Shown here in pieces: positions 9,314 to 21,946 of a stretch of DNA of 64,000 bases. The notes under the pieces were generated by a model. It was not told the origin of the DNA. It searched no databases and was given only the letters and a program-made list of their open reading frames with translations. How positions within the stretch are numbered: position 1 is the stretch's first letter; each line of letters opens with the position of its first letter. The stretch is from Deltaproteobacteria bacterium (GTDB lineage Bacteria; Myxococcota_A; Polyangia; JAAYKL01): the NCBI GenBank assembly GCA_030595125.1, contig JAUVDV010000024.1, positions 1 to 64,000 on the forward strand, written 5' to 3'. The position numbers and the translations under genes are program-made.

Positions 9314-10420
9314 ATGAAAAAGAATATCTGGATACTATTGATCACCTTGCTGGCGACGGGAATCGTCGGGGCGACGATCGGGTGTAGCGAAAGCAAACAA
9401 AAAGACGATGTGTTGGATGCGTCCACTGATACCGATACGGACACCGATGCGGATACGGATACGGATTCCGATACCGATTCGGATACCGACACTGACACCG
9501 ATACCGATACCGATACGGACACCGACACCGATACCGATACGGACACGGATCCTCCCCTGCTCACCGATCTCGACTGCACCAATCCCATCGCCGGAGCCGG
9601 TGACGCGTGCGAGATAGGAGTGAATGACTGTGACACCGAGCACCAGTGTGCTGAAAACTGGTGGGACATGTACACGCCGAGCGACAATATAACCGGCCAT
9701 TTCTGCTACGTCGGGTGCGCGGACACTCCCTTTGTTTCGCCGGATGCAGGGGTGGATGCGGGAACATGCTCCGATCCCGCCGGGTGTTTCTGCGAGGGCA
9801 GCGCAAGCGAATGCGTCGATTTCAATCCCACCGGGACAATCAAGGCGTGCATGCCTCTGGGTCAATTCAAGGCTAACTGGGAGGTGAACGTTGTGCCTGC
9901 CGGAGACGCCGTCGTTTCCGACGATTACCACGTCTTTCCCATCGGAGAGAGCTGGAACTGTCAGACCCTCGGCTTCACTTCGGGTTGGGGGCAACAGGTA
10001 TTGTCGGAGATCACCCTGGCCGACGGCGGCACGACAACACCCGATGCGGGTCCGGACGCGGGGCCGTGGGATGAAACCGGGTATGTACTGATACAATCCA
10101 AGGTCGACATCGGCGGCTTTTTCCCAAAGGCATACCGCGTGCTGATTGCTGTTCCGTACGCCAATTTCACGGCCGGAACCACCCTGGATCTGGGGTCGGA
10201 TTCCGGGGCATTTGTCGCCAAGCTTTACCGCTTCGAGTTGGCGCCTATTACCTTTGAAGTCGATGCCGCCGAGCTCAGGGCTTACGCCGTGGGTGGAACC
10301 ATCACTATCGACACAATCGAAGATCCATGCGGAGGGGCCGGCTGCCCGGTCTCCACGGGCACCATGGACATCCATTTCCACATGGCGAGCGCCACCCTCG
10401 ATCCCGCTGATTTCATCTAA
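9314..10420 (+). CDS. Lipoprotein with Asp-Thr repeat linker
   Basis: A 368-residue secreted protein with a strong Shine-Dalgarno (ggagga at 9301-9306). The signal ends in TIGC, giving a likely lipidated Cys at about residue 24. An alternating Asp-Thr/Asp-Ser stretch (about residues 38-78) leads to a Cys-rich segment (DCTNPIAGAGDACEIGVNDC, HFCYVGC, GCFCEGSASEC) likely held by disulfides, and then a beta-rich C-terminal half. Two short DAG-rich inserts (SPDAGVDAGTC, TPDAGPDAGPW) mark loops. I recognise no enzyme family. Part of the same linker style as 3208, 21164 and 35705; probably cell-surface displayed. Confidence 0.78.
   Translation: MKKNIWILLITLLATGIVGATIGCSESKQKDDVLDASTDTDTDTDADTDTDSDTDSDTDTDTDTDTDTDTDTDTDTDTDPPLLTDLDCTNPIAGAGDACEIGVNDCDTEHQCAENWWDMYTPSDNITGHFCYVGCADTPFVSPDAGVDAGTCSDPAGCFCEGSASECVDFNPTGTIKACMPLGQFKANWEVNVVPAGDAVVSDDYHVFPIGESWNCQTLGFTSGWGQQVLSEITLADGGTTTPDAGPDAGPWDETGYVLIQSKVDIGGFFPKAYRVLIAVPYANFTAGTTLDLGSDSGAFVAKLYRFELAPITFEVDAAELRAYAVGGTITIDTIEDPCGGAGCPVSTGTMDIHFHMASATLDPADFI
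9424..9552 (+). repeat. Hexamer tandem repeat encoding Asp-Thr linker
   Basis: Degenerate six-base units (gay acs) code for Asp-Thr with a few Asp-Ser and Asp-Ala. Third-base variation is high, so the array is older than the perfect 18-mer array in the 3208-3882 gene. Confidence 0.85.
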
Positions 10421-10463
10421 GAACGTAACGGGATAGTCTCCAAAATTTACCGGTAGTGTGCGT

Positions 10464-10514
10464 TTTGCGCCCGGTGCCGATGAGCGGTTTGCGCCCGGTT
10501 GTGCGGTTCACGCC
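10464..10514. repeat. Short 24-bp-period direct repeat
   Basis: The 12-mer tttgcgcccggt occurs at 10464-10475 and 10488-10499, with a degraded third copy (gcggttcacgcc, 10503-10514). It lies in the gap between the lipoprotein and the OmpA gene. It could be a regulator binding array or an IS-end relic; nothing distinguishes these. Confidence 0.4.
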
Positions 10515-10575
10515 CTGACGAACCCCGATTGGCCGCGCATTTCTCGCTGGCATGGGGGTTGCTTATACACTGGGT

Positions 10576-12129
10576 ATGTCGTTTTTCTTTGAGCATGTAA
10601 GGGTCCCGGCCCGGCTTCTCGTCTTGACAATTGCTCTTGTCATTTCGACCGCCGCGAGGGCTGAAACGGGAGATTCTTTCAACGCTCACGTGGAGGTCGG
10701 ACCGGCCTTTGCTCTGGGGGGATGGCAGGCGCAGGAGTTGGGGGTCGGCATGTCGGCGGCGGGTCGTCTGGAGCTGGTTCTGGCGAGTTGGGTTGGTATC
10801 GAGGCGGGCGTGGCCTACATGCGTTTTTTCGAGGGCAATCACCCGGAGGGATACCGTCAGATCGATGGCGCTTCGATGTTCATGGCAGGCATCGGCGCGC
10901 GATTCCGGCTGGTGAATGACGAGGACGGATATCTTCGCCCCTGGGGCGCGAAGCCGGATCACACGGGAAATGTCTGGGGAAACCTGTGGATGGATCTCCA
11001 CGGCAACTACGTTCGGACCGGCGACCAAAACCGCTTTGGTGCGGACGTGGGCCTGGGTTACGAATTTTCCCTCTTCAACAACCTGCAGGTGGGACCTTTC
11101 GTTCGCGGGACGTACATCTACCAGCCGGATGGGACCAACGAGAGGGCGTCGCAGGATGCATGGCTTCTGGTGGTGGGACTGAGCGGATCACTATCGCTCC
11201 GAGACGACTCGGTGGTGATGCCCGACTCGGACGGCGACACCTACTACGATCCGCATGACGGCTGCCCAAAGAAACCGGAGGACTTCGATGGATTCGAGGA
11301 CGATGACGGTTGTCCGGATGATGACAATGACGATGACGGTGTGATCGATACGGTCGATGAATGCCCGCTGGTTCCCGAGGATCGCGACGGATTCGAGGAT
11401 GATGACGGCTGCCCGGAAAAGGATAACGACGGCGACGGAATCCCGGACGAGAAGGACGAGTGTCCGGACGAGCCGGAGGACGCGGACGGGTTCGAGGATG
11501 AGGACGGTTGCCCGGATACGGATAACGACGGCGACGGGATCCCGGACGCCAGGGACGAGTGCCCGAACGAGCCGGAAACAGCCAATGGGTTCGAGGACGA
11601 GGACGGCTGCCCGGAAAAGGACAGCGACGGTGACGGAATCGTGGACGCGAAAGACGAGTGTCCGGACGAGCCGGAAACAGTCAATGGGCTGGAGGACGAG
11701 GACGGTTGTCCGGACGAGGCGCTCGTGGAGGTGAAGGACCGCGAGATTCTCGGCGGCGAGCGGATATTCTTCGACTTCGGCATGGCGCGGGTAAAGAGCA
11801 GATCGCTGGCATTTCTCGAGCAGCTCGGCCGGCTGCTCGAAGTGCACCCGGAGTTCGTCAGCATCTCCATTGAGGGACACACGGACAACGTTGGAGATGC
11901 ATCATTCAACCGCAAGCTTTCGAAGAAGCGTTCGGAACGCGTGAAGAAGTGCCTTGTCGATTTCGGGATCGATCCGCAACGGTTGATTGTTACGGGCCAC
12001 GGCGAGAAGACCCCGTGGCAGGCGGGTCGGAACGCCAGATCGCGGGCCCAAAATCGGCGGGTGGAGTTCTACATTCTGAAAATCGACGAGGAGAACCCCG
12101 TGGAGAAACACGAGGAGGAAGAATTATGA
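10576..12129 (+). CDS. OmpA-family outer membrane protein with thrombospondin type 3 repeats
   Basis: About 517 residues from ATG 10576; another in-frame ATG lies at 10552, but a -10-like ttatac at 10563-10568 would place the transcript start near 10576. A Sec signal ends STAARA. Residues 30-205 look like an outer membrane beta-barrel. Residues 217-385 hold five Ca-binding thrombospondin type 3 repeats (DNDGDGIPDEKDECPDEPE pattern). Residues 390-500 form an OmpA C-terminal peptidoglycan-binding domain (ISIEGHTDNVG, NRKLSKKRSERVKKCLVDFG, RSRAQNRRVEF). It should tether the outer membrane to the wall. Its stop overlaps the next start (ATGA), so the Cys-rich lipoprotein is translationally coupled to it. 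Confidence 0.9.
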   Translation: MSFFFEHVRVPARLLVLTIALVISTAARAETGDSFNAHVEVGPAFALGGWQAQELGVGMSAAGRLELVLASWVGIEAGVAYMRFFEGNHPEGYRQIDGASMFMAGIGARFRLVNDEDGYLRPWGAKPDHTGNVWGNLWMDLHGNYVRTGDQNRFGADVGLGYEFSLFNNLQVGPFVRGTYIYQPDGTNERASQDAWLLVVGLSGSLSLRDDSVVMPDSDGDTYYDPHDGCPKKPEDFDGFEDDDGCPDDDNDDDGVIDTVDECPLVPEDRDGFEDDDGCPEKDNDGDGIPDEKDECPDEPEDADGFEDEDGCPDTDNDGDGIPDARDECPNEPETANGFEDEDGCPEKDSDGDGIVDAKDECPDEPETVNGLEDEDGCPDEALVEVKDREILGGERIFFDFGMARVKSRSLAFLEQLGRLLEVHPEFVSISIEGHTDNVGDASFNRKLSKKRSERVKKCLVDFGIDPQRLIVTGHGEKTPWQAGRNARSRAQNRRVEFYILKIDEENPVEKHEEEEL

Positions 12130-13754
12130 ACGGCAAATATGTGGTCGAAGTGTCGGCGTTGCTGTTGTTGGTGATCATCTCGCTATCGGCGCCGTCGTGT
12201 ACGGGCGGGCTCGTTGGAGCGCCGTGCGATGACGGGTACAGCGCGTGTATAAACGGCTGCTTTGATTTCATGGAGGATTCGGGCAACTGCGGGGATTGCG
12301 GTGTGGTCTGTGCATCGGGGGAGACATGCCAGGACGGGGTTTGCCGGTACTGCCCGCCGGGAACCGAGGAATGCGGCGGCGAGTGCGTGGATCTCACCAG
12401 CAGCATTGAGCATTGCGGCCAGTGCTTTGGGGAGTGCGAGTTGTACCAGATTTGCGAAAGCGGCCAGTGCTCCGGTTGCCCTTCCGGGACCGAGCTATGT
12501 GGCGGCGAGTGTGTGGATACGAGTACGAACGACGTACACTGCGGCCAGTGTGACAACCAGTGTGATGAGGGCTCGAGCTGCCAGGACGGCGCCTGCGTTA
12601 CGTATTGCGATCCTCCGTTGGTCCAATGTGGAGACGAGTGTGTGAGCACGCAATCCAACACGCACCATTGCGGCGAATGCGACAACGAGTGTGATATCGA
12701 CGAGCTGTGCGTGGCCGGAAAATGCGAGATCGATTGTGGAGGAGGCCTCGTCGAGTGCGGCGGCGAGTGTGTCGACTTGTTGACGGACAACGAGAACTGC
12801 GGCGGTTGTGATATCGAATGCGGAGACACGGAGATCTGCGAGGCCGGTTCGTGCATTGCGGACTGCGGGATCCTCGATTGGTGCGATACGGCCTGCGTCG
12901 ACCTTGCCTCCGACAACGATCACTGCGGGTCGTGTAACAGCCCGTGCTCGACCGGTTGGTTCTGCGTTGCCGGGACGTGCAGTCTCGATTGTCCCAGCCC
13001 GTTCGTCGCGTGCGGTTCCGTTTGCGTGGATCTCGAAACCAGCCCGTTCAACTGCGGCTGGTGTGGCAACGCGTGCGCCACGGGGATCTGCATCGACGGC
13101 GCATGCAAGGCGCAGAGCGCAGGTCACCTTGTCGCCATCGGCCACGATCTGACCGTAGATCACGTCATCTTGCGCAGGCTTGTGGGAAACGCCGTCTTCA
13201 TGGCGCACAACAACCCGGTGGAAGTGCTCGCCTATGTCGAGTATGCGGATACCTCGCCGGGGGGACAGATGGACGCTGTGGATTCGGCGCTCAACCTGGA
13301 GGCTGCTGCGACCGGTCAGAGCTGGAACAAGACCGTCGCTGCGGATGCCCAGAACGTGGTTGACGACATTCTGATGTACGACGTTCTCCTCGTGTACAGA
13401 CAGGGCATCGCGACCGATATCGAGCTGGATGCGACAGGCGTGCAGTGGTTCTCTCCTCTGAGGAATTTTCTCTCCGTCGGCGGGATCATCGTCTTCACAG
13501 ACGGGCCGGGCTCCAACCTGGGCACATGGCAGATCTTCAATTCCGCCGATCTGTTCGACTGCGCGGCCATCACCGACGTCACCGGTTCCACCGCCGACGT
13601 GGTCGAACCCGGGGACGCCGTCGCCCAGGGCCTGAGCACCTCCTACCTCTCCGCGACGAACAGCGTCTTCTTTTCAACCTCCGAATCCCTCGTCGTCACG
13701 GAAGACAGCGCCACCGGCAATCCCCTCGTGATCCACAAGGTGTTTATTCCGTAG
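12126..13754 (+). CDS. Cys-rich repeat lipoprotein with C-terminal alpha/beta domain
   Basis: A 542-residue protein starting at ATG 12126, inside the stop of the OmpA gene, with GAGGAGG upstream; a longer open frame from 11949 is not the start. The signal ends SAPSC, an atypical lipobox. Residues 25-325 are about eight repeats of 35-40 residues with the plan C-GG/D-ECVDL-N-HCG-C-C-G-C, a disulfide-rich pattern seen in many myxobacterial surface proteins. The C-terminal 210 residues (GHLVAIGHDLTVDHVILRRL, YDVLLVYRQGI, GGIIVFTDGPG) look like a Rossmann/GATase-like fold. Their catalytic residues are not evident. Possible adhesin or sensor linked functionally to its OmpA partner. Confidence 0.82.
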   Translation: MNGKYVVEVSALLLLVIISLSAPSCTGGLVGAPCDDGYSACINGCFDFMEDSGNCGDCGVVCASGETCQDGVCRYCPPGTEECGGECVDLTSSIEHCGQCFGECELYQICESGQCSGCPSGTELCGGECVDTSTNDVHCGQCDNQCDEGSSCQDGACVTYCDPPLVQCGDECVSTQSNTHHCGECDNECDIDELCVAGKCEIDCGGGLVECGGECVDLLTDNENCGGCDIECGDTEICEAGSCIADCGILDWCDTACVDLASDNDHCGSCNSPCSTGWFCVAGTCSLDCPSPFVACGSVCVDLETSPFNCGWCGNACATGICIDGACKAQSAGHLVAIGHDLTVDHVILRRLVGNAVFMAHNNPVEVLAYVEYADTSPGGQMDAVDSALNLEAAATGQSWNKTVAADAQNVVDDILMYDVLLVYRQGIATDIELDATGVQWFSPLRNFLSVGGIIVFTDGPGSNLGTWQIFNSADLFDCAAITDVTGSTADVVEPGDAVAQGLSTSYLSATNSVFFSTSESLVVTEDSATGNPLVIHKVFIP

Positions 13755-13802
13755 AGGTCATTTTTTCGGAATGTGGATGGGGCTCGTGCGGGGGATGATT
13801 CA

Positions 13803-14411
13803 CTAAGACAGATTATCCAGCACCAAAGAAAGATCGATATCAAGCTCTTGTTCAACGGCAGTCACAAAGCTCAGGTGCTCGGGATGCTCTGCGAACCAGT
13901 CCCGCCTACGTTGGTTGTCGAATGTGGTCAACTTGAAGAGATCCCGCAGTCTGCGAACGTGGTTTTCCCTTTCCTCGACCAAACCTCTGTCATTGAATCC
14001 CAGGAAGTCGATAAGCGCTGCGGCCTCATCATCGGTTGCGTCCGTCTCTTCGTAGACGAATTCCCCAGTCACGTAGCGTATCCGGTTCACAGGCTGATTT
14101 TCGTCCTGAAAGAACAGGGAAATGAAGAACTTCGCGCCTGTGTGCCTGTTTTCTTTACCGAGCTTGCGCAGGTTGGCATCGCGAAGGACCGCGTAGTAAT
14201 TGAAGTAGTTGTCCCCTTTGTCTTTTTTCGTTCTGTCAAAATGTTCGACTTCCGTAGAGTCGATCTTGCTGACGTATTTTTCGGTGTATGCGCAGAAGCC
14301 CTTCTGTTCCTCAAGGAGCATCTTACGCAGCCGTCGGTTATCGCGACCTGTCGTATAAACGACCTTCCCGGCAAGGATTGCCGAGCTTTTTTTCTTGGTG
14401 AGAAACTTCAT
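13803..14411 (-). CDS. HNH-type nuclease, PtuB-like partner of the Septu-type ATPase
   Basis: A 202-residue protein with an HNH-like core: EEQKGFCAYTEKYVSKI (C40), EVEHFDR (H57), then NYFNYYAVLRDANLRK (N71). The first metal-site pair reads CAYT rather than Cys-x2-Cys, so the zinc site may be altered. Its ATG lies inside the stop of the ATPase gene (ATGA overlap). A small HNH protein immediately after an SMC/ABC-like ATPase is the arrangement of the Septu (PtuAB) anti-phage system. Expected role: DNA or nucleic acid cleavage gated by the ATPase. No reverse transcriptase is nearby, so this is not a retron-type version. Confidence 0.75.
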   Translation of the reverse strand: MKFLTKKKSSAILAGKVVYTTGRDNRRLRKMLLEEQKGFCAYTEKYVSKIDSTEVEHFDRTKKDKGDNYFNYYAVLRDANLRKLGKENRHTGAKFFISLFFQDENQPVNRIRYVTGEFVYEETDATDDEAAALIDFLGFNDRGLVEERENHVRRLRDLFKLTTFDNQRRRDWFAEHPEHLSFVTAVEQELDIDLSLVLDNLS

Positions 14412-15793
14412 CGATCGTTATTTGGGGAGAAGTTGTAGCTATCTCCGATTTCGACCGCGCGAGCGAGCAGATCGGCTTTTTCGTTTTCATCATCCGATTG
14501 TCGAATTAGCTTTCTCAAATTCAGATATTCCTGCCACTTCTTTTCGCCTTCTTTCCCCATGAGCCGGGTTAGCTCGAAGTCTTTTTTTAGAACGTCGTTG
14601 GGATCATCGCCAATCGGGGCGCGCCCCTTCTTGGCCGTTACATGACCACCCTCGTCCCATTCGAGGATGATCCGTTCGTGGGGCTGGAACTGTGCCGCGA
14701 TGAGTGGGCTGTGCGTTGCAAAGAACATCTGCGTGTTGGTGGTCCCGTCTTCGTTCCTCGCGATCCTGTCATAGGTATCCATCAGATCGAACAGAAAATC
14801 CGGGAACAGACTGTTCTCCGGCTCGTCGACGAGCAAGAACCCGCGCTCGATTTGTCTGCCGAAATACAGGAGGAAGATGTGTCCGAGCCTGAAGATGAAA
14901 TCCCTGGTCCCGGTGCTGAGCTGACTATAGGCAATCTTTTCCTTCGTGGACTTGAGGCGGATATATGCCTTTAGGTTGTCGTTGAGCTGGATCGGGTTGC
15001 TCGCCCCTTCCTCATCGAACTCCAGTCCCGCGCGGTCGAGAATCTCGTTCCAGAGCACCGCCAACTCGTGGAGCACCTTCGGGTGAGTCCGGTCGAACTC
15101 CTCGATAAGCTCGCTCTTTGTTCTCGAAAGGTTCTCTTTACTATTCTCGAACTCGTCCCGGTCATTATCCCGCTTCTTGACGAGGTACACGAGCACTCGC
15201 CAACACTCCGCGATAGTCTGGTTTGAAACTGTGTGATGAAAGGGGAATGTCTGGAACAGACCAAGAGCTTTGTCCAGGGTCGTGATGGGGACATCGCCAA
15301 TACCAATGGCCGTGTTCTGTGGCACCTCTGAGGGCGAATAAATGACGACATCCGAGCTATCGTCCTTGAATATCAGATTGTTCTTCAGTTCAGCGAGACG
15401 CTCCGGTTTGAGTAAGTACCCCCTGTACTTGGTTGAGTTGATTTTCGATCCGACGGTGGTGGGGTCTTCGGCAAGATCGTCGATCCAGCCTTCCTCTCTT
15501 TCGATGCGGGAGTCTAGAAAGTGAACAATTGCGCCATTACTCTCCGCCACCAGATAGACGAACTGATCGGAGCTTTTCAACTTGACGGCAAAGAACCGAC
15601 CCCATGCGGGTAAACTTCCGGGCACAACTGAGAGCAGTTGATAGATGTTTCTCAAGACGGTCGACTTGCCGGTCCCATTTCTGCCGATCAGACATATCCG
15701 GTCCGCCGGCTCGCCGGTCGCCGGATCCGTGAAGTCCAGATCGGTTTTTTCAAACTGCCGATATCCTCGAATGATCAACTTGCAGATCTTCAT
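14408..15793 (-). CDS. AAA/ABC-type ATPase, PtuA-like
   Basis: A 461-residue ATPase of the RecF/SMC-like (AAA_15/AAA_21) type: Walker A GRNGTGKST (37-45), signature LSTGTRD (292-298), Walker B FLLVDEP (319-325) followed by ENSLFP, and switch histidine in ATHSPL (H361). The middle (residues 180-285) is a charged helical insertion. There is no TOPRIM nuclease domain, separating it from OLD/Gabija A. With the HNH gene overlapping its end, the pair matches Septu PtuA-PtuB. No strong Shine-Dalgarno precedes ATG 15793. Base composition looks more AT-rich than the flanking genes, as often seen for acquired defence genes. Confidence 0.78.
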   Translation of the reverse strand: MKICKLIIRGYRQFEKTDLDFTDPATGEPADRICLIGRNGTGKSTVLRNIYQLLSVVPGSLPAWGRFFAVKLKSSDQFVYLVAESNGAIVHFLDSRIEREEGWIDDLAEDPTTVGSKINSTKYRGYLLKPERLAELKNNLIFKDDSSDVVIYSPSEVPQNTAIGIGDVPITTLDKALGLFQTFPFHHTVSNQTIAECWRVLVYLVKKRDNDRDEFENSKENLSRTKSELIEEFDRTHPKVLHELAVLWNEILDRAGLEFDEEGASNPIQLNDNLKAYIRLKSTKEKIAYSQLSTGTRDFIFRLGHIFLLYFGRQIERGFLLVDEPENSLFPDFLFDLMDTYDRIARNEDGTTNTQMFFATHSPLIAAQFQPHERIILEWDEGGHVTAKKGRAPIGDDPNDVLKKDFELTRLMGKEGEKKWQEYLNLRKLIRQSDDENEKADLLARAVEIGDSYNFSPNNDR

Positions 15794-15911
15794 AATTTCA
15801 TCTCACTATCTTGACGAGCTTTTCGCACATATTAGCATTTTGTTCACCGGATCAATAGAAACATGGGGTTAGCCTGCTTAACCTGCTTAATGCGCCAAAG
15901 AAAACCCTATG

Positions 15912-16142
15912 TCACTCGGGCCGGTGGATATCTCTCCATTCCAACGCGCCGTTTTCGCGCAGAGATTCCAGGTCGGGGAGGTCGTCGGTTCGGCACTCTA
16001 TCGACATTCCGCAGTCGGAGCTCAACTCTCTGGGAGTGGGAATGAGGTCGCACCATATTCCATGCCGCACGATTATCTTCTCCGCCTTGATCACGTCGTG
16101 AATGGAATCGAAGGCCAGGACAACATGCTTGCCGCTGCTCAT
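15912..16142 (-). CDS. DUF3343 family small protein
   Basis: A 76-residue protein: KHVVLAFDSIHDVIKAEKII, then GIWCDLIPTPRELSSDCGMSIEC, the signature of DUF3343 proteins (FxST-xA-AE, PxPRxxSSxCG, with conserved cysteines). It begins at ATG 16142, overlapping the stop of the aminotransferase gene by 4 bp. The family co-occurs with YedF and a class V aminotransferase in selenium-using bacteria and is proposed to handle sulfur or selenium. The exact role is unknown. Confidence 0.85.
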   Translation of the reverse strand: MSSGKHVVLAFDSIHDVIKAEKIIVRHGIWCDLIPTPRELSSDCGMSIECRTDDLPDLESLRENGALEWRDIHRPE

Positions 16143-17275
16143 GATCGGGCAATTTCGTCGACGGCCGCCACGGCTTGCTCCATCTCGTCCGTCGTGTTCA
16201 ATGCGCCGGCCGAAAAACGCACCGTGCCGTCCGGGAAAGTTCCGATGGTTCGGTGTGCGTCCGGAGCGCAATGCAGACCCACCCGCACCATGATGTCATG
16301 ACGTTTGTCCAGCAACCCGCCGACCTGCGACGGGCTCTTGCCTTCAACATTCAGCGAGACCGTGGGCAACCGCGCCTCTGTGGAACTCGGGCCGTAGAGT
16401 ACGACGCCCTCGATGCGGCGGAGTCTCTCCAAAAACACATCAAGTAGATTCATCTCGTGATTGTGGATTGTTTCCACTCCCCGTTCGAGAATGAAACGCA
16501 CGCCGGCGCCCAGACCGGCTATTCCGCAGGTGTTGAGGGTGCCGCTTTCGTATTTGTCGGGCCGGAAATCCGGCTGCTGGTCCGACTCGGAGCGCGAGCC
16601 GGTGCCCCCGCGCACAAGCGGCGGAAGGTCCAGCTCGGGGCGAACGTATAGCCCGCCGGTCCCCGCAGGGCCCAGCAGAGATTTGTGGCCGGAGAACGCC
16701 AGCAGGTCTATGCCGTCACGCTCTATCGAAATGGGATAGCTGCCCGCAGTCTGGGCCGCGTCCACGAGCAACGGCACCTTTCCGATGGCTTCCTTTATTT
16801 GCGCGATGGGCTGGATGCAGCCCACCACGTTGGAGCCGTGGTTGATCGCGACCAGTCGAGTCTTCGGTTCGAGCGCCTCTCGGATCGCGGCCGGATCCAC
16901 CCGGCCTTCCCGGTCTGCCGCAACAACGGTGATCCGAACCCCGCGCTCCCTGGCGAGATGTCGGAGCGGGCGCATGACAGAGTTGTGCTCCATGGAAGTG
17001 GTGACCACGTGATCTCGCGGGCCGAGCATTCCATGAAGAGCGATATTCAGGCCGGCGGTGGCGTTGGAGGTGAAGACGATCTGTCTCGAATCCGATACCC
17101 CAAACAATTCGGCAAGGCCCTGCCTGGTGTCGAAAACAATCCGAGCGGCCTGCGCGGAGAGGCGGTGACCGGACCGGCCGGGGTTGGCTCCCACGTGGAC
17201 CATGAAATGTCGTACGGCCTCGACTACGGCTGGAGGTTTGGGATGGGACGTGGCTGCGTTGTCAAGATAGATCAT
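16139..17275 (-). CDS. Class V aminotransferase, cysteine desulfurase / selenocysteine lyase-like
   Basis: A 378-residue PLP enzyme starting MIYLDNAATSHPKPPAV at ATG 17275; a longer frame to 17500 overlaps yedF and is rejected. The PLP lysine is in LLAFSGHKSLLGPAGTGG, the substrate-arginine region is RVGLHCAPDAHRTIG with the likely catalytic Cys, and PDGTVRFS lies near the end. This matches the am_tr_V_EF2568 group of cysteine desulfurase-like proteins found beside YedF and DUF3343 rather than NifS or SufS. Likely reaction: removing S or Se from cysteine or selenocysteine and delivering it to YedF. It sits 5 nt after yedF and overlaps the DUF3343 gene. Confidence 0.88.
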   Translation of the reverse strand: MIYLDNAATSHPKPPAVVEAVRHFMVHVGANPGRSGHRLSAQAARIVFDTRQGLAELFGVSDSRQIVFTSNATAGLNIALHGMLGPRDHVVTTSMEHNSVMRPLRHLARERGVRITVVAADREGRVDPAAIREALEPKTRLVAINHGSNVVGCIQPIAQIKEAIGKVPLLVDAAQTAGSYPISIERDGIDLLAFSGHKSLLGPAGTGGLYVRPELDLPPLVRGGTGSRSESDQQPDFRPDKYESGTLNTCGIAGLGAGVRFILERGVETIHNHEMNLLDVFLERLRRIEGVVLYGPSSTEARLPTVSLNVEGKSPSQVGGLLDKRHDIMVRVGLHCAPDAHRTIGTFPDGTVRFSAGALNTTDEMEQAVAAVDEIARS

Positions 17276-17280
17276 GTCGC

Positions 17281-17907
17281 TCAGGGACGGACCAGGCGGT
17301 CCGCCGTCGCCAGGGCGGTTGCGATCTCGTACATGTTCGATTCGTATCCCACCTCGAGTTTGCCCTTGAGATTGTAGTAGTCCAGGCAGGTTCCGCAGGA
17401 GAGAATTTGTGCGCCCGAGTTTTCGATATCCTTGATGTCGGCTACCAGATCCGAGCCTTCCGTGGTGAGCTTCACTCCGCTGTTGGCGAAGATAATGCAC
17501 TCCGGCAGCGGGTCGAGTTGTTTGAGAGTTTTTATAAAGGCGCGCATCAGGATACTTCCCAGCTCCTTTGCGCCTTCCCCGAAAAAGTTCGATGCAATGA
17601 ATACGACAACACGTGGAGGCGCGGGGGCGATCTCACAAGTTGGACAGGATTCATCGCTATCGGGCTCACTCGCTTCTTTGACTTCGTCCTTGACGATGAC
17701 CACGGTAAAGTTTCCTTCGTCGTCCTCTTTGATATCCACCGCCCAGCCCATACTCACAGCCATCCTCTTCACGTTCTGCGCCGACCCCGGGTTGTCCACC
17801 ACCACGGAGAGTTTCTCGGTATCGGGGAGGAAGAGCGCCTTGCGCGTCTCGACCACCGGTTGCGGGCACGGCCGGCCGCGCATGTCTATTTTCATTTCCT
17901 CAGTCAT
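17281..17907 (-). CDS. yedF: Selenium metabolism protein YedF
   Basis: A 208-residue, two-domain protein. Residues 1-80 are a TusA/SirA-like domain with RGRPCPQPVVETRKAL, in which the CPxP cysteine carries persulfide or perselenide. Residues 98-208 are DsrE-like, with VVVFIASNFFGEGAKELG and ILSCGTCLDYYNL. The short CPTC in the linker adds another thiol pair. This architecture is diagnostic of YedF, linked to selenium use. A clear AAGGAG site precedes ATG 17907. It heads the yedF-aminotransferase-DUF3343 unit. Confidence 0.92.
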   Translation of the reverse strand: MTEEMKIDMRGRPCPQPVVETRKALFLPDTEKLSVVVDNPGSAQNVKRMAVSMGWAVDIKEDDEGNFTVVIVKDEVKEASEPDSDESCPTCEIAPAPPRVVVFIASNFFGEGAKELGSILMRAFIKTLKQLDPLPECIIFANSGVKLTTEGSDLVADIKDIENSGAQILSCGTCLDYYNLKGKLEVGYESNMYEIATALATADRLVRP

Positions 17908-18021
17908 TCAGTTACTCCTTGAGATAAGAATGATGAATATCGCGGGAATAGCCGATATGTCTAACTGTAAATTCCGATAGTAAGCGACGTCTTGTTCGGA
18001 AAATCCGATGGGCCGTCCGGA

Positions 18022-18957
18022 TCAAATTGCGGTGGGTTCGGCGACTACGAAATCAGTGAAGGCCCGGCACAGGGGCGAGAGGGTCCGCCGCTTGTCGCGG
18101 ATCAGGAAAAACTCTCTGGGGAGCGAAAGCCCCTTCACCGGAACAATGGCCAGGCTGCCCGCCTCGACTTCTGCCTCGACCGCCCGAAGCGACATGATCG
18201 ACACTCCCAGGTTGTGCTTGATCCCTTCCTTGACCGCAGCGGGACTTCCGAGCTGCGCCACGACGGTGAAGGAGTCCAGGCCGACCGAATACAATTCAAA
18301 AAGGCGATGATCGAGCATGCTCCGTGTTCCCGAGCCGGTCTCTCTCAAGATGAAAGGTTCTTTGCGAAGATCCTCGATCGATATTGATTTTTTTTTGCGC
18401 CAGCGGTGTGAAGAGGAAACGACCAGAACCATTTTGTCTTTCCAGATTTCGTCGTGGACCAGGCCTTTTGCCTTTACCCTTGATCCCACGAAGCCCAGCT
18501 CGAATGCCCCCTCCGACACCCCGTGCGATATCTCGTCCGATCCCCCGATGCCGAGCCGGACCGTTACCTCCGGATAGTTTGTAGCGAAGCGTTTGATAAC
18601 ACCGGGGAGGATGCACTCTCCGGGGATTGTGCTTCCTCCGATCAGTATTTCGCCGCGAGAGATTCCCATGATCTCTTCGATCTCCAGGCAAGTGCGCCGC
18701 TTCATCTCCAGTTGCTTGATCGCGCGCCGGTAGAGCAGCTTGCCCACCTTGTTTGGCACGACCGTCCGGCCGATTCGATCCAGGAGCTTCGTTCCGACCA
18801 TGTGTTCGAGTGTGGCCACGCGCTCGGAGACCGATGCCTGGGCCAGATGGACGGCCTTTGCCGCCTGGGAGAAGCTCCCGAGTTCCACCACCTTGCAGAA
18901 CACCTCGAGCTGCCTCAGGTCAAAATCTATCACGCCTTTTTTTCCGGATGTTCTCAT
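18022..18957 (-). CDS. LysR family regulator, selenium-metabolism associated
   Basis: A 311-residue regulator with an N-terminal winged helix (DLRQLEVFCKVVELGSFSQAAKAVHLAQASVSERVATLE) and a LysR substrate-binding domain (GEILIGGSTIPGECILPGVI, LGFVGSRV, PFILRETGSGTR). Start ATG 18957 overlaps the nifS stop by ATGA. The binding-domain wording matches the CysB/CysL-like subgroup found next to YedF and selenium genes. It lies between nifU-nifS and yedF and probably controls one or both units, most simply in response to a sulfur or selenium metabolite. Confidence 0.85.
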   Translation of the reverse strand: MRTSGKKGVIDFDLRQLEVFCKVVELGSFSQAAKAVHLAQASVSERVATLEHMVGTKLLDRIGRTVVPNKVGKLLYRRAIKQLEMKRRTCLEIEEIMGISRGEILIGGSTIPGECILPGVIKRFATNYPEVTVRLGIGGSDEISHGVSEGAFELGFVGSRVKAKGLVHDEIWKDKMVLVVSSSHRWRKKKSISIEDLRKEPFILRETGSGTRSMLDHRLFELYSVGLDSFTVVAQLGSPAAVKEGIKHNLGVSIMSLRAVEAEVEAGSLAIVPVKGLSLPREFFLIRDKRRTLSPLCRAFTDFVVAEPTAI

Positions 18958-20111
18958 CAGTCCTTGAACAGGGAGATTTCCCGCAGCCGTTCGATGATCG
19001 GTGGCAAGGCCTCGATAACGAAATCCACTTCCTCGTCGTTGTTCATGCGGCAAAGAGAGAACCTCAGGGAGCCGTGGGCGAAGTGGAAGGGCACACCCAT
19101 GGCGCGCAACACGTGGGACGGCTCCAGGGTGCCCGAGGTGCAGGCGGATCCGGACGAGGCGCAGATTCCTTTCCTGTCGAGCATGAGAAGCAGAGCCTCA
19201 CCCTCAACGTTCTTGAAGCTGATATTGGTGGTTCCCGGGAGACGCTGGTCCACGTCGCCGTTGAGCCGGGTGTCCGGCATGGCGAGGAGACTCTTTTCGA
19301 GTCGGTCGCGAAGGGCGCGCACCCGGGTTCTCTCCTCGTCAATGTGGGCCTGTGACAATTCGGCGGCACAGCCCAGCGCCACGATCCCCGGGACATTTTC
19401 GGTGCCGCCCCGGCGGCCGCGCTCCTGATGACCACCGAGCAGGAATGGGCGGAACCTGCATCCGCGCCTGACGTAGAGTGCGCCGATACCTTTGGGCGCG
19501 TGGATCTTGTGTCCGGATATTGACAGGAGATCGATGTTTCCACTGCTCAGATCCAGGGGTAGCTTGCCCATGATCTGAACTGCATCGGTGTGAAACAGGG
19601 CTCCGTGCTCGTGGGCGATGCGCCCGGCCTTTTCGACCGGGAAGATCACGCCGGTCTCGTTGTTGGCGGCCATCATGCTGACCAGGGCGACGTTCTCGTC
19701 CATCTCCTCCTCGAGCTGGTTGAGGGATAAGTTGCCGTTGCCGTCGACGGGAAGATAAGTCACATCGTAGCCCTCACGCTCCAGATGCCTGGCCAGGGTG
19801 AGCACTGCCGGATGCTCCACCCGCGTGGTGATGAGCCTGCGGCGGCTTTTTCTGGATCTCAACGCGGAGCGGATGGCGGTGTTGTCAGACTCGGTGCCGC
19901 AACTTGTGAAGACGATTTCAGTCGGGTGCGTGGCGCCGAGGCTGGAGGCCACCTGTTCGCGGGCCTTCTCGATGGCATTGGCCACGTTGCCGCCGAACTC
20001 GTGCATGCTCGACGGATTGCCGTAGTGTTCTACGAGAAAGGGCATCATCGCCTCTACCACCAGTGGATCTACGGCGGTCGTGGCGTTGTTGTCCAGGTAG
20101 ATTGTTCGCAT
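18957..20111 (-). CDS. nifS: Cysteine desulfurase NifS
   Basis: A 384-residue PLP enzyme: MRTIYLDNNATTAVDPLV at the start, EHPAVL and SISGHKIHAPKGIGALYVRRG (PLP lysine), and the catalytic loop SSGSACTSGTLEPSHV with the persulfide Cys at about residue 325. It converts cysteine to alanine and supplies sulfane sulfur, presumably to the NifU scaffold encoded just upstream. Start ATG 20111 overlaps the nifU stop (TAATG), so the two are translationally coupled. No nitrogenase gene is in the window; this pair likely serves as a general Fe-S assembly system in an anaerobe. Confidence 0.94.
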   Translation of the reverse strand: MRTIYLDNNATTAVDPLVVEAMMPFLVEHYGNPSSMHEFGGNVANAIEKAREQVASSLGATHPTEIVFTSCGTESDNTAIRSALRSRKSRRRLITTRVEHPAVLTLARHLEREGYDVTYLPVDGNGNLSLNQLEEEMDENVALVSMMAANNETGVIFPVEKAGRIAHEHGALFHTDAVQIMGKLPLDLSSGNIDLLSISGHKIHAPKGIGALYVRRGCRFRPFLLGGHQERGRRGGTENVPGIVALGCAAELSQAHIDEERTRVRALRDRLEKSLLAMPDTRLNGDVDQRLPGTTNISFKNVEGEALLLMLDRKGICASSGSACTSGTLEPSHVLRAMGVPFHFAHGSLRFSLCRMNNDEEVDFVIEALPPIIERLREISLFKD

Positions 20112-20977
20112 TACGCTCCCTCCTCCACCACATCCAGAGAGATCGCCGGGTCGACGATTTCCCTGAGCTTGTCCTCGATCCAGCTGGTGGTCAGTCCGGC
20201 GGCGCGACAACCGGAGCACTGACCGACCATCCTGATCGACACGGCAAGTCCGTCGATATCCACCAGCTCGAGATCGCCGTTGTCCTTCTGCAGAATCGGC
20301 CGCACTTCGTTGTCAAGAATCTCCTGGATCAATGCGATTCGCTGGAGGTTGGTGAGCTTGGGGGACTTGGGTTTCTTCTTTTCCTGAGTTTGCTCGGGTC
20401 TGGCGTCGCTGAACTCCTCGAGGATGGTCTCGATCTCGTCGATACACGAGCCGCAGCCTCCTCCCGCCTTGGTGTAATTTGTCACGTCCTCGACCGTGCG
20501 CAGATTGTTCTCCGCCACGACCTTGCGGATCTTCCCTTCGGTGATGCCGAAGCAATTGCAAACGATCCGTCCTTCGTCCTCCTCCTCCTCCGGTCCGGCC
20601 TTCTCCCCTCGGTAATCTGCAATGGCCGCCTCGAGGGCCTCACGACCCATCACGGAGCAGTGCATTTTTTCCGGAGGCAGGCCGCCGAGGGCAGCCGCGA
20701 TCTCCTGGTTGGTGATCTTGAGCGCCTCTTCGAGGGTCTTGCCCTTGATCATGCCGGTCAGGATGGATGAGGACGCGATGGCGCTGCCGCAGCCGAAGGT
20801 CTGAAATCTGGAGTCCTCGATGGTATCGTTTTCTTTATCTACCTTGATTGTGAGCTTGAGCGCGTCACCGCAGGCGATGGAGCCGACCTTGCCGGTGCCG
20901 TCCGCGTTGTCCAGCACCCCCACGTTATTTGGTTGAAAGAAATGTTGTTTGACCAGATCCGTATAATTCCAGGCCAT
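20111..20977 (-). CDS. nifU: Fe-S cluster scaffold NifU (three-domain)
   Basis: A 288-residue protein with the full NifU plan: an IscU-like N-terminal scaffold (SIACGDALKLTIKV, FQTFGCGSAIASSS, KMHCSVMGREALEAAI, supplying three Cys), a central BFD-like [2Fe-2S] domain (IVCNCFGITEGKIR, GGGCGSCIDE), an acidic/lysine linker, and a C-terminal NifU domain with GQCSGCRAAGLTTSWIE (Cys-x2-Cys). It receives sulfur from NifS and builds clusters. AAGGAG precedes ATG 20977. It is the first gene of the nifU-nifS-LysR run, and the AOR operon would be a heavy local client. Confidence 0.95.
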   Translation of the reverse strand: MAWNYTDLVKQHFFQPNNVGVLDNADGTGKVGSIACGDALKLTIKVDKENDTIEDSRFQTFGCGSAIASSSILTGMIKGKTLEEALKITNQEIAAALGGLPPEKMHCSVMGREALEAAIADYRGEKAGPEEEEDEGRIVCNCFGITEGKIRKVVAENNLRTVEDVTNYTKAGGGCGSCIDEIETILEEFSDARPEQTQEKKKPKSPKLTNLQRIALIQEILDNEVRPILQKDNGDLELVDIDGLAVSIRMVGQCSGCRAAGLTTSWIEDKLREIVDPAISLDVVEEGA

Positions 20978-21163
20978 CTCGAACTCCTTTTTCAGGCGAA
21001 CAAACCAAGTCTACGATGGGTATAACCATTATTGAGCGGGTACGCCACAGGAACAAATGAAAAGTGGAAAGAAAAGTAAAGTTTCCGTGTGATGGGTTGG
21101 GTGTTTGTGCGGCACACACGTTTCGGGTACATATTATGTTGCGAATCTTTTGGGGAGGTTGAG

Positions 21164-21946
21164 ATGAGCACGTTAAGATTTATTTTGGCGATGTTCGTAG
21201 CGATATTTTTATTCGCTTCTTGCAACGGGGGCGGTTCGAGCGCAAGCGACGCCTCTACCAACGGCGGCGACACCGACACTGATACCGATACAGACACGGA
21301 TACGGATACTGATACTGACGCCGATACGGACACGGACATCGATACGGGCACAGACACTGATTGTCCCTTTGGCGAGTACAGCGGCGATTTTGAGATACTC
21401 GAACAATCGGATGTAGCAACCCTCGCGGGATACACCTCTATATCGGGGCAGCTTGTAGTCCATGGCCCTTCGTGCATCGATTTGAGCGAATTGAATTGCC
21501 TCACATCGGTGGGCGGGTCCTTGGAGATCTCTTTCAACTCAGTCACCAACCTGGACGGATTGAACAACCTCACCTCTGTAGGTGAGAACTTGTCTATTAT
21601 GATGTGCGACGTCCTTACCGACCTGGACGGATTTAGCAACCTCACCTCGATTGGCGGGACCTTATACGTCGAGGATAACGACGCCCTGACAAACCTCGAC
21701 GGCCTGAGCGCTCTCATCTCGGTGGGTGAGCACTTGGCATTTATCTGGAACGGCGCCCTGACGAGCCTTGGCGGCCTGAGCGCCCTCATCTGGGTGAATG
21801 ACGGTTTTTGGATGTACGGTAACGAAATTCTTCCCGACTGCGAGGCGTGCGATCTTCTGGATCAGCTCACTAGAGGGCCTTCTTCGATAAATGTTCACAA
21901 CAACTTCATCGACTCTTGCACGCCCGTTCCGATAAACTGTCCTTAG
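21164..21946 (+). CDS. Lipoprotein with Asp-Thr linker and receptor-L-like leucine-rich repeats
   Basis: A 260-residue protein from ATG 21164 (GGGGAGG just upstream; the frame is open from 21089 but without a ribosome site). The signal ends FASC, a lipobox. An Asp-Thr stretch (about residues 36-66) precedes repeats of the form LTSVGGSLEIS-N-LTNLDGL-NLTSVGENL, about 23 residues each, with the ladder pattern of Receptor L / leucine-rich beta-helix domains. It closes with Cys pairs (DCEACDLL and SCTPVPINC). It should act as a surface binding domain on an acidic stalk. Ligand unknown. Confidence 0.82.
   Translation: MSTLRFILAMFVAIFLFASCNGGGSSASDASTNGGDTDTDTDTDTDTDTDTDADTDTDIDTGTDTDCPFGEYSGDFEILEQSDVATLAGYTSISGQLVVHGPSCIDLSELNCLTSVGGSLEISFNSVTNLDGLNNLTSVGENLSIMMCDVLTDLDGFSNLTSIGGTLYVEDNDALTNLDGLSALISVGEHLAFIWNGALTSLGGLSALIWVNDGFWMYGNEILPDCEACDLLDQLTRGPSSINVHNNFIDSCTPVPINCP
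21268..21362 (+). repeat. Hexamer repeat encoding Asp-Thr linker
   Basis: Degenerate gay-acn units giving mostly Asp-Thr with Asp-Ala, Asp-Ile and Gly-Thr interruptions; the shortest array of its kind in the window. Confidence 0.8.

Follow-up and report, generated by a model that had tools for sequence, protein, structure and literature searches.

A divergent type I Septu pair with a zinc-less HNH protein

The 64,000-nt stretch of DNA analysed here (hereafter, the window) carries two genes, ptuA and ptuB, that are an ordinary two-gene member of Septu type I and belong to a divergent branch with a zinc-less PtuB. We consider it probable that the pair constitutes a type I Septu anti-phage system, with a zinc-less HNH effector that is predicted to be active.

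Identification of the ptuA and ptuB genes

An earlier note, made from the sequence alone, had proposed an ABC-type ATPase followed by an overlapping HNH protein. The open frames begin and end exactly where it had placed them, and both are on the minus strand, which it had left unstated. In the transcript ptuA comes first and ptuB second:

15793..14408, minus strand: ptuA, ABC-type/AAA_15 ATPase, 461 aa (open frame; PADLOC, Pfam)
14411..13803, minus strand: ptuB, HNH nuclease, 202 aa (open frame; PADLOC)
14408-14411, minus strand: ptuA stop overlapping the ptuB start, 4 nt (open frames; relatives)

The comparison with PADLOC models bears out the proposed PtuA/PtuB identity decisively, as both profiles are matched nearly end to end: PtuA matches PDLC00274 (PtuA) at 2.6e-99 (residues 1-455 on positions 1-438 of a 438-position profile), and PtuB matches PDLC00347 (PtuB) at 4.6e-43 (residues 3-194 on positions 4-189 of 195). 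The Pfam scan of PtuA returned AAA_15 (1.7e-32), while that of PtuB found no HNH or other domain. With NCBIfam, PtuB scored 25.2 bits for TIGR02646 (cut-off 52.15) and 32.5 bits for NF041761 (cut-off 150). As these scores are far under the cut-offs and no Pfam HNH domain is found, PtuB must be regarded as divergent.

PADLOC AriA models also match PtuA (9.2e-31) and, taken together with the AAA_15 match, this would suit a sister ATPase-nuclease system other than Septu, such as PARIS AriA, OLD or a Gabija-like system. Such an assignment is highly improbable: the PtuA protein scores 331 bits with the PtuA model but 106 bits with the AriA model (PADLOC), and the gene beside it encodes an HNH PtuB, with neither AriB nor GajB models among the 25 of 28 PADLOC matches listed. 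What is found is a full-length PtuA ATPase, a full-length PtuB HNH protein, adjacent co-directional genes, and Walker A/B and HNH residues, that is, the features of Septu type I.

Septu type II (retron I-A) is defined by a reverse transcriptase (PtuC) before ptuA (PMC8565338). No reverse transcriptase lies before ptuA in the window, where the neighbouring genes encode proteins of the Se/S carrier-like and aminotransferase class V kinds, and the 64 kb gave no Rfam match at gathering scores, in a collection that need not cover every retron RNA. The pair is therefore Septu type I by layout, and a retron identity is rejected on the same ground. The PtuAB proteins of retrons Ec78/Eco7 and Ec83 (NF041761, NF041760; PDB 9l7p, 9e8z and others) resemble the window pair in combining an ATPase with an HNH effector, but those PtuB chains carry CAYC (CAYCE) where the window has CAYT, and no reverse transcriptase stands beside the window pair.

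Catalytic residues and zinc cysteines

The residues discussed below are the following:

15662..15685, minus strand: PtuA Walker A GRNGTGKS, residues 37-44 (translation)
14816..14827, minus strand: end of PtuA Walker B, DEPE, residues 323-326 (PtuA alignment)
14283-14294, minus strand: PtuB CAYT, residues 40-43, with the first zinc-cysteine position kept and Thr at the second (alignment)
14241..14243, minus strand: PtuB H57 (in VEH), first catalytic HNH residue (aligned to the family His)
14199..14201, minus strand: PtuB N71, second HNH residue (alignment)
14172..14174, minus strand: PtuB N80, third HNH position, Asn replacing His to give an HNN motif (alignment and GVE2 spacing)

The ABC motif set of PtuA is complete. 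In addition to Walker A, in which G37-K43 is invariant in the alignment of PtuA relatives, it comprises LSTG (residues 292-295), Walker B (LLVDEPE, residues 320-326, with D323-E324 present) and an ATH switch (residues 359-361). In PtuB, the branch alignment shows no variation at H57 or N71. C40 is the sole zinc cysteine left, and T43, L76 and A79, the last beside N80, occupy the other three positions. The HNH domain of Cas9 is likewise not known to have such zinc cysteines.

In the HNH protein of phage GVE2, zinc is held by C76, C79, C114 and C117, and N109 and H118 are called essential (PMC5304195). Judged by spacing, GVE2 C76, C79, C114, C117, N109 and H118 would correspond to PtuB C40, T43, L76, A79, N71 and N80, respectively; on this mapping, the window PtuB keeps the cutting site without the zinc site. 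AlphaFold models built from three-row alignments had pLDDT values of 38.5 and 47.8 for the two proteins, unusable for fold comparison.

The earlier note had pointed to CAYT, in place of the usual Cys-x2-Cys, as a change that may alter metal binding or activity. We aligned 73 rows, namely 72 distinct retrieved proteins (the window included) and part of a solved PtuB, 8ee7. Identical rows were merged (76 to 72). Two loci were left out, L007 for being a remnant and L089 because its frame as read has no HNH, and two were never entered, L026, which is the gene of L013 again, and L004, which is the window itself. All four zinc cysteines are present in 57 of the 73 rows, a proportion that is not a population frequency because the sample consists of best-scoring loci, one search having contributed the best 30 of more than 150 matches. 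Cys-x2-Cys is hence indeed usual among the sampled proteins, and comes together with the other two zinc cysteines. Fourteen rows, including the window and 8ee7, have only the first cysteine; one has the first and third (L078); and one has none in register (L066, which has a long branch and a cysteine displaced by one column). In no row is the second cysteine missing alone. These counts indicate that the zinc cysteines come and go as a set. CAYT as a lone point change is ruled out, as the second, third and fourth cysteines are jointly absent.

The window, six close relatives and 8ee7 all have the first cysteine only, and this residue is retained, always as C-x-Y, in 15 of the 16 rows without the full set; a role other than zinc binding is possible for it. 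In the PtuB tree the window is one of 11 zinc-less rows that form a branch together (SH-aLRT 96), with members from the window's phylum and from Bacteroidota. The zinc site needs 5 changes by parsimony, 2 of them forced by well supported branches, so it has probably changed more than once. The idea that CAYT marks a special system with altered activity is thus not supported: the whole branch and 8ee7 (CCYS) share the state, and H-N-N is kept. Nor do the missing cysteines suggest a broken enzyme, being common to the branch relatives and a solved Septu nuclease. No description of a cysteine-less PtuB was among the papers listed by our literature searches on it; among those listed for zinc with PtuB, one concerns PtuAB (PMC11555353).

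The solved structures 8ee7/8eea (Septu type I) share with the window the two-gene layout of an ATPase and an HNH protein. We take 8ee7 to be the Septu protein from E. coli described by Li et al. 2024. Its PtuB keeps the first cysteine (CCYS versus CAYT) and the H and N, with no other zinc cysteine in register: its CCYSE is followed by NLAASA and GGHAQGK, in the places of NL..SC and HC..K of zinc types. The differences are the weak sequence similarity (profile E 2.1e-4) and a shorter stretch between N71 and N80. The PtuA profile had no match to the chains of that entry at E 0.01.

We also compared the zinc state with PtuA. Of 71 loci, 70 have a Walker-B-like motif close to ptuB and on its strand (L014 gave none); in five loci the motif has a positive offset, an effect of too early a call of the ptuB start. 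Walker B reads DEPE or DEPD in 13 of the 15 zinc-less loci, the window counted, whereas it does so in 0 of the 56 zinc-type loci (Fisher 1.8e-12). The association would suit a distinct Septu subtype, in which a zinc-less PtuB and a DEPE-type PtuA respond to another trigger or act on another target than zinc-type Septu and retron PtuAB do, and the well supported zinc-less branch points the same way. But the exceptions L078 and L079 are zinc-less and carry DEVD/DEIE, and the independent pairs on well supported branches are only 2, so that shared descent can explain the association. We therefore claim no more than shared lineage, and not coevolution; the association lies mostly within one lineage. 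The distinct subtype is accordingly a rather doubtful reading. We give the same tentative standing to its broader form, in which Septu would consist of two coevolved pair types, one of a zinc-site PtuB with a DE[IV][DE] PtuA and the other of a zinc-less PtuB with a DEPE PtuA, the second forming a subtype apart, with an activation or target peculiar to it. Should two pair types exist, the first cysteine, kept in nearly all rows lacking the full set, would have a non-zinc role.

Distribution, selection and genomic surroundings

The gene ptuA is directly upstream of ptuB in six relatives (L002/L049, which are one contig reached by two routes, L003, L050, L051, L052 and L053). The 4-nt overlap recurs in L002, L003, L050 and L051; L052 has an overlap of 1 nt, and where ptuB starts in L053 is uncertain. 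In the three relatives scanned (L003, L050, L052) both proteins match the PADLOC PtuA and PtuB models. Among 377 genomes of the window's phylum, PDLC00347 is found at 1e-3 in 12, five of them below 1e-29; PDLC00274 is found at 1e-20 in the same five among 356 genomes, with ptuB alongside in 5/5. A sample of the phylum of L003 yielded PDLC00347 matches in 31 of 395 genomes, four below 1e-39. Our searches found no relatives in viral contigs, plasmids or phages. In the nearest relative (G006) the pair adjoins a type IIG restriction enzyme (PDLC03604, 1.7e-223).

A second PtuB-like protein, of the zinc type, is encoded in the window's own genome (L028/L054; G000 contig 153, 44338-44742) together with its own ATPase, so that both PtuB kinds occur in one genome. 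It resembles the window pair in being an ATPase with an overlapping HNH protein (1-nt overlap), but differs in its zinc type, CCYC with all four Cys, and in its Walker B, DEID.

With respect to the nearest relative, dN/dS is about 0.13-0.14, a rough value as dS is 1.3-2.2, and neither frame has an internal stop; to judge from these sequences, ptuA and ptuB are under purifying selection. Together with the profile matches and the adjacency in six relatives, this shows that the observation does not arise by chance. A decayed ptuB remnant (residues 91-194) is present in G005 (L056, 7678-8000), where no ptuA was found. Within genus g4, G013 has an intact pair and G005 the ptuB end only, both near a similar gene of 673-674 aa, a contrast in keeping with defence genes, which are typically gained and then decay.

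The pair lies in accessory DNA:

10419..15912, no strand assigned: variable block with an OmpA/TSP3 gene, a STIG1-like lipoprotein gene, ptuB and ptuA (absent at the same place in G002)

In the same-genus genome G002, window positions 10418 and 15913 map to 6805 and 6816 of contig L097; as the flanks are there 10 nt apart, the block of about 5.5 kb is absent from G002, and a search of L097 with the block sequence gave no match. A gain in the window and a loss in G002 fit this pattern equally. G001 is uninformative on the block since its contig ends first. The flanks have GC contents of 0.593 and 0.579, compared with 0.519 for ptuAB. By reading, together with Pfam scans of four neighbours, no other defence gene was recognised directly beside the pair in the window. 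Two imperfect 23-nt repeats (13820, 15892) were not accepted as an insertion scar, since one copy is inside ptuB and their identity is 74%. Promoter and terminator scans returned about as many hits as shuffles predict.

Several other features of the region were recorded. The OmpA-family gene of the block, with thrombospondin type 3 repeats, contains five 99-nt repeats (window 11252-11717), and the adjoining cysteine-rich lipoprotein-like gene (11949-13754), likewise in the block absent from G002, has three STIG1-like stretches (Pfam 1.5e-33). A sulfur/selenium cluster (15907-20977) encodes a Se/S carrier and two cysteine desulfurase-like, one YedF-like and one NifU-like proteins; Pfam scans covered the carrier and the first of the aminotransferase class V proteins, and the other names are by reading. 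Near window 17920-17948, G002 has about 2.1 kb of additional DNA (L097 8817-10972), with a CoA-dehydratase/activator-like pair by reading, which is absent in the window. Two lipoprotein-like genes with long Asp-Thr repeats occur at 9314-9600 and 21089-21400, and the counterpart of the former in G002 is matched by the repeat stretch 21268-21371 as well.

Predicted mode of action and significance

According to PMC13096335, Septu EcB88 of E. coli cleaves tRNA-Tyr, and mutating PtuA K43/D316 or PtuB H75/N91 abolishes defence. EcB88 is likewise a two-gene PtuAB, and its needed Walker A/B residues and HNH His and Asn have counterparts in the window pair, a likeness of described residues and layout. 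As these counterparts are present, PtuB is expected to cut nucleic acid and to be held by the ATPase until infection, and with Mg or Mn the protein should be active, because the metal-dependent H57-N71-N80 site is kept.

The genes ptuA and ptuB are probably translationally coupled. By analogy with the family, an oligomer of the ABC-type ATPase PtuA would hold PtuB in check. On infection PtuB would turn active and cut nucleic acid, which may be host tRNA or phage DNA, as the target differs among known PtuAB; Retron-Eco7 PtuAB leads to tRNA-Tyr depletion. Such cutting would stop phage growth. Alternatively, PtuB could be a degenerate, dead nuclease, the loss of zinc cysteines having removed its activity and left the pair decaying or PtuB a mere binding partner. 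Three of four zinc cysteines are indeed missing and a decayed copy exists in G005, but the invariant catalytic H57 and N71, the low dN/dS with intact frames and a solved PtuB (8ee7) without the same cysteines make this very improbable. We thus retain the reading of an active, zinc-less effector.

The pair adds a divergent Septu branch, which occurs both in Bacteroidota and in the window's phylum; this zinc-less, DEPE-paired branch may cut tRNA, DNA or something else. It shows that PtuB can lack its structural zinc site as a unit and still keep the catalytic residues, and reading the loss of CxxC as the mark of an altered or dead nuclease is therefore unsafe for Septu.
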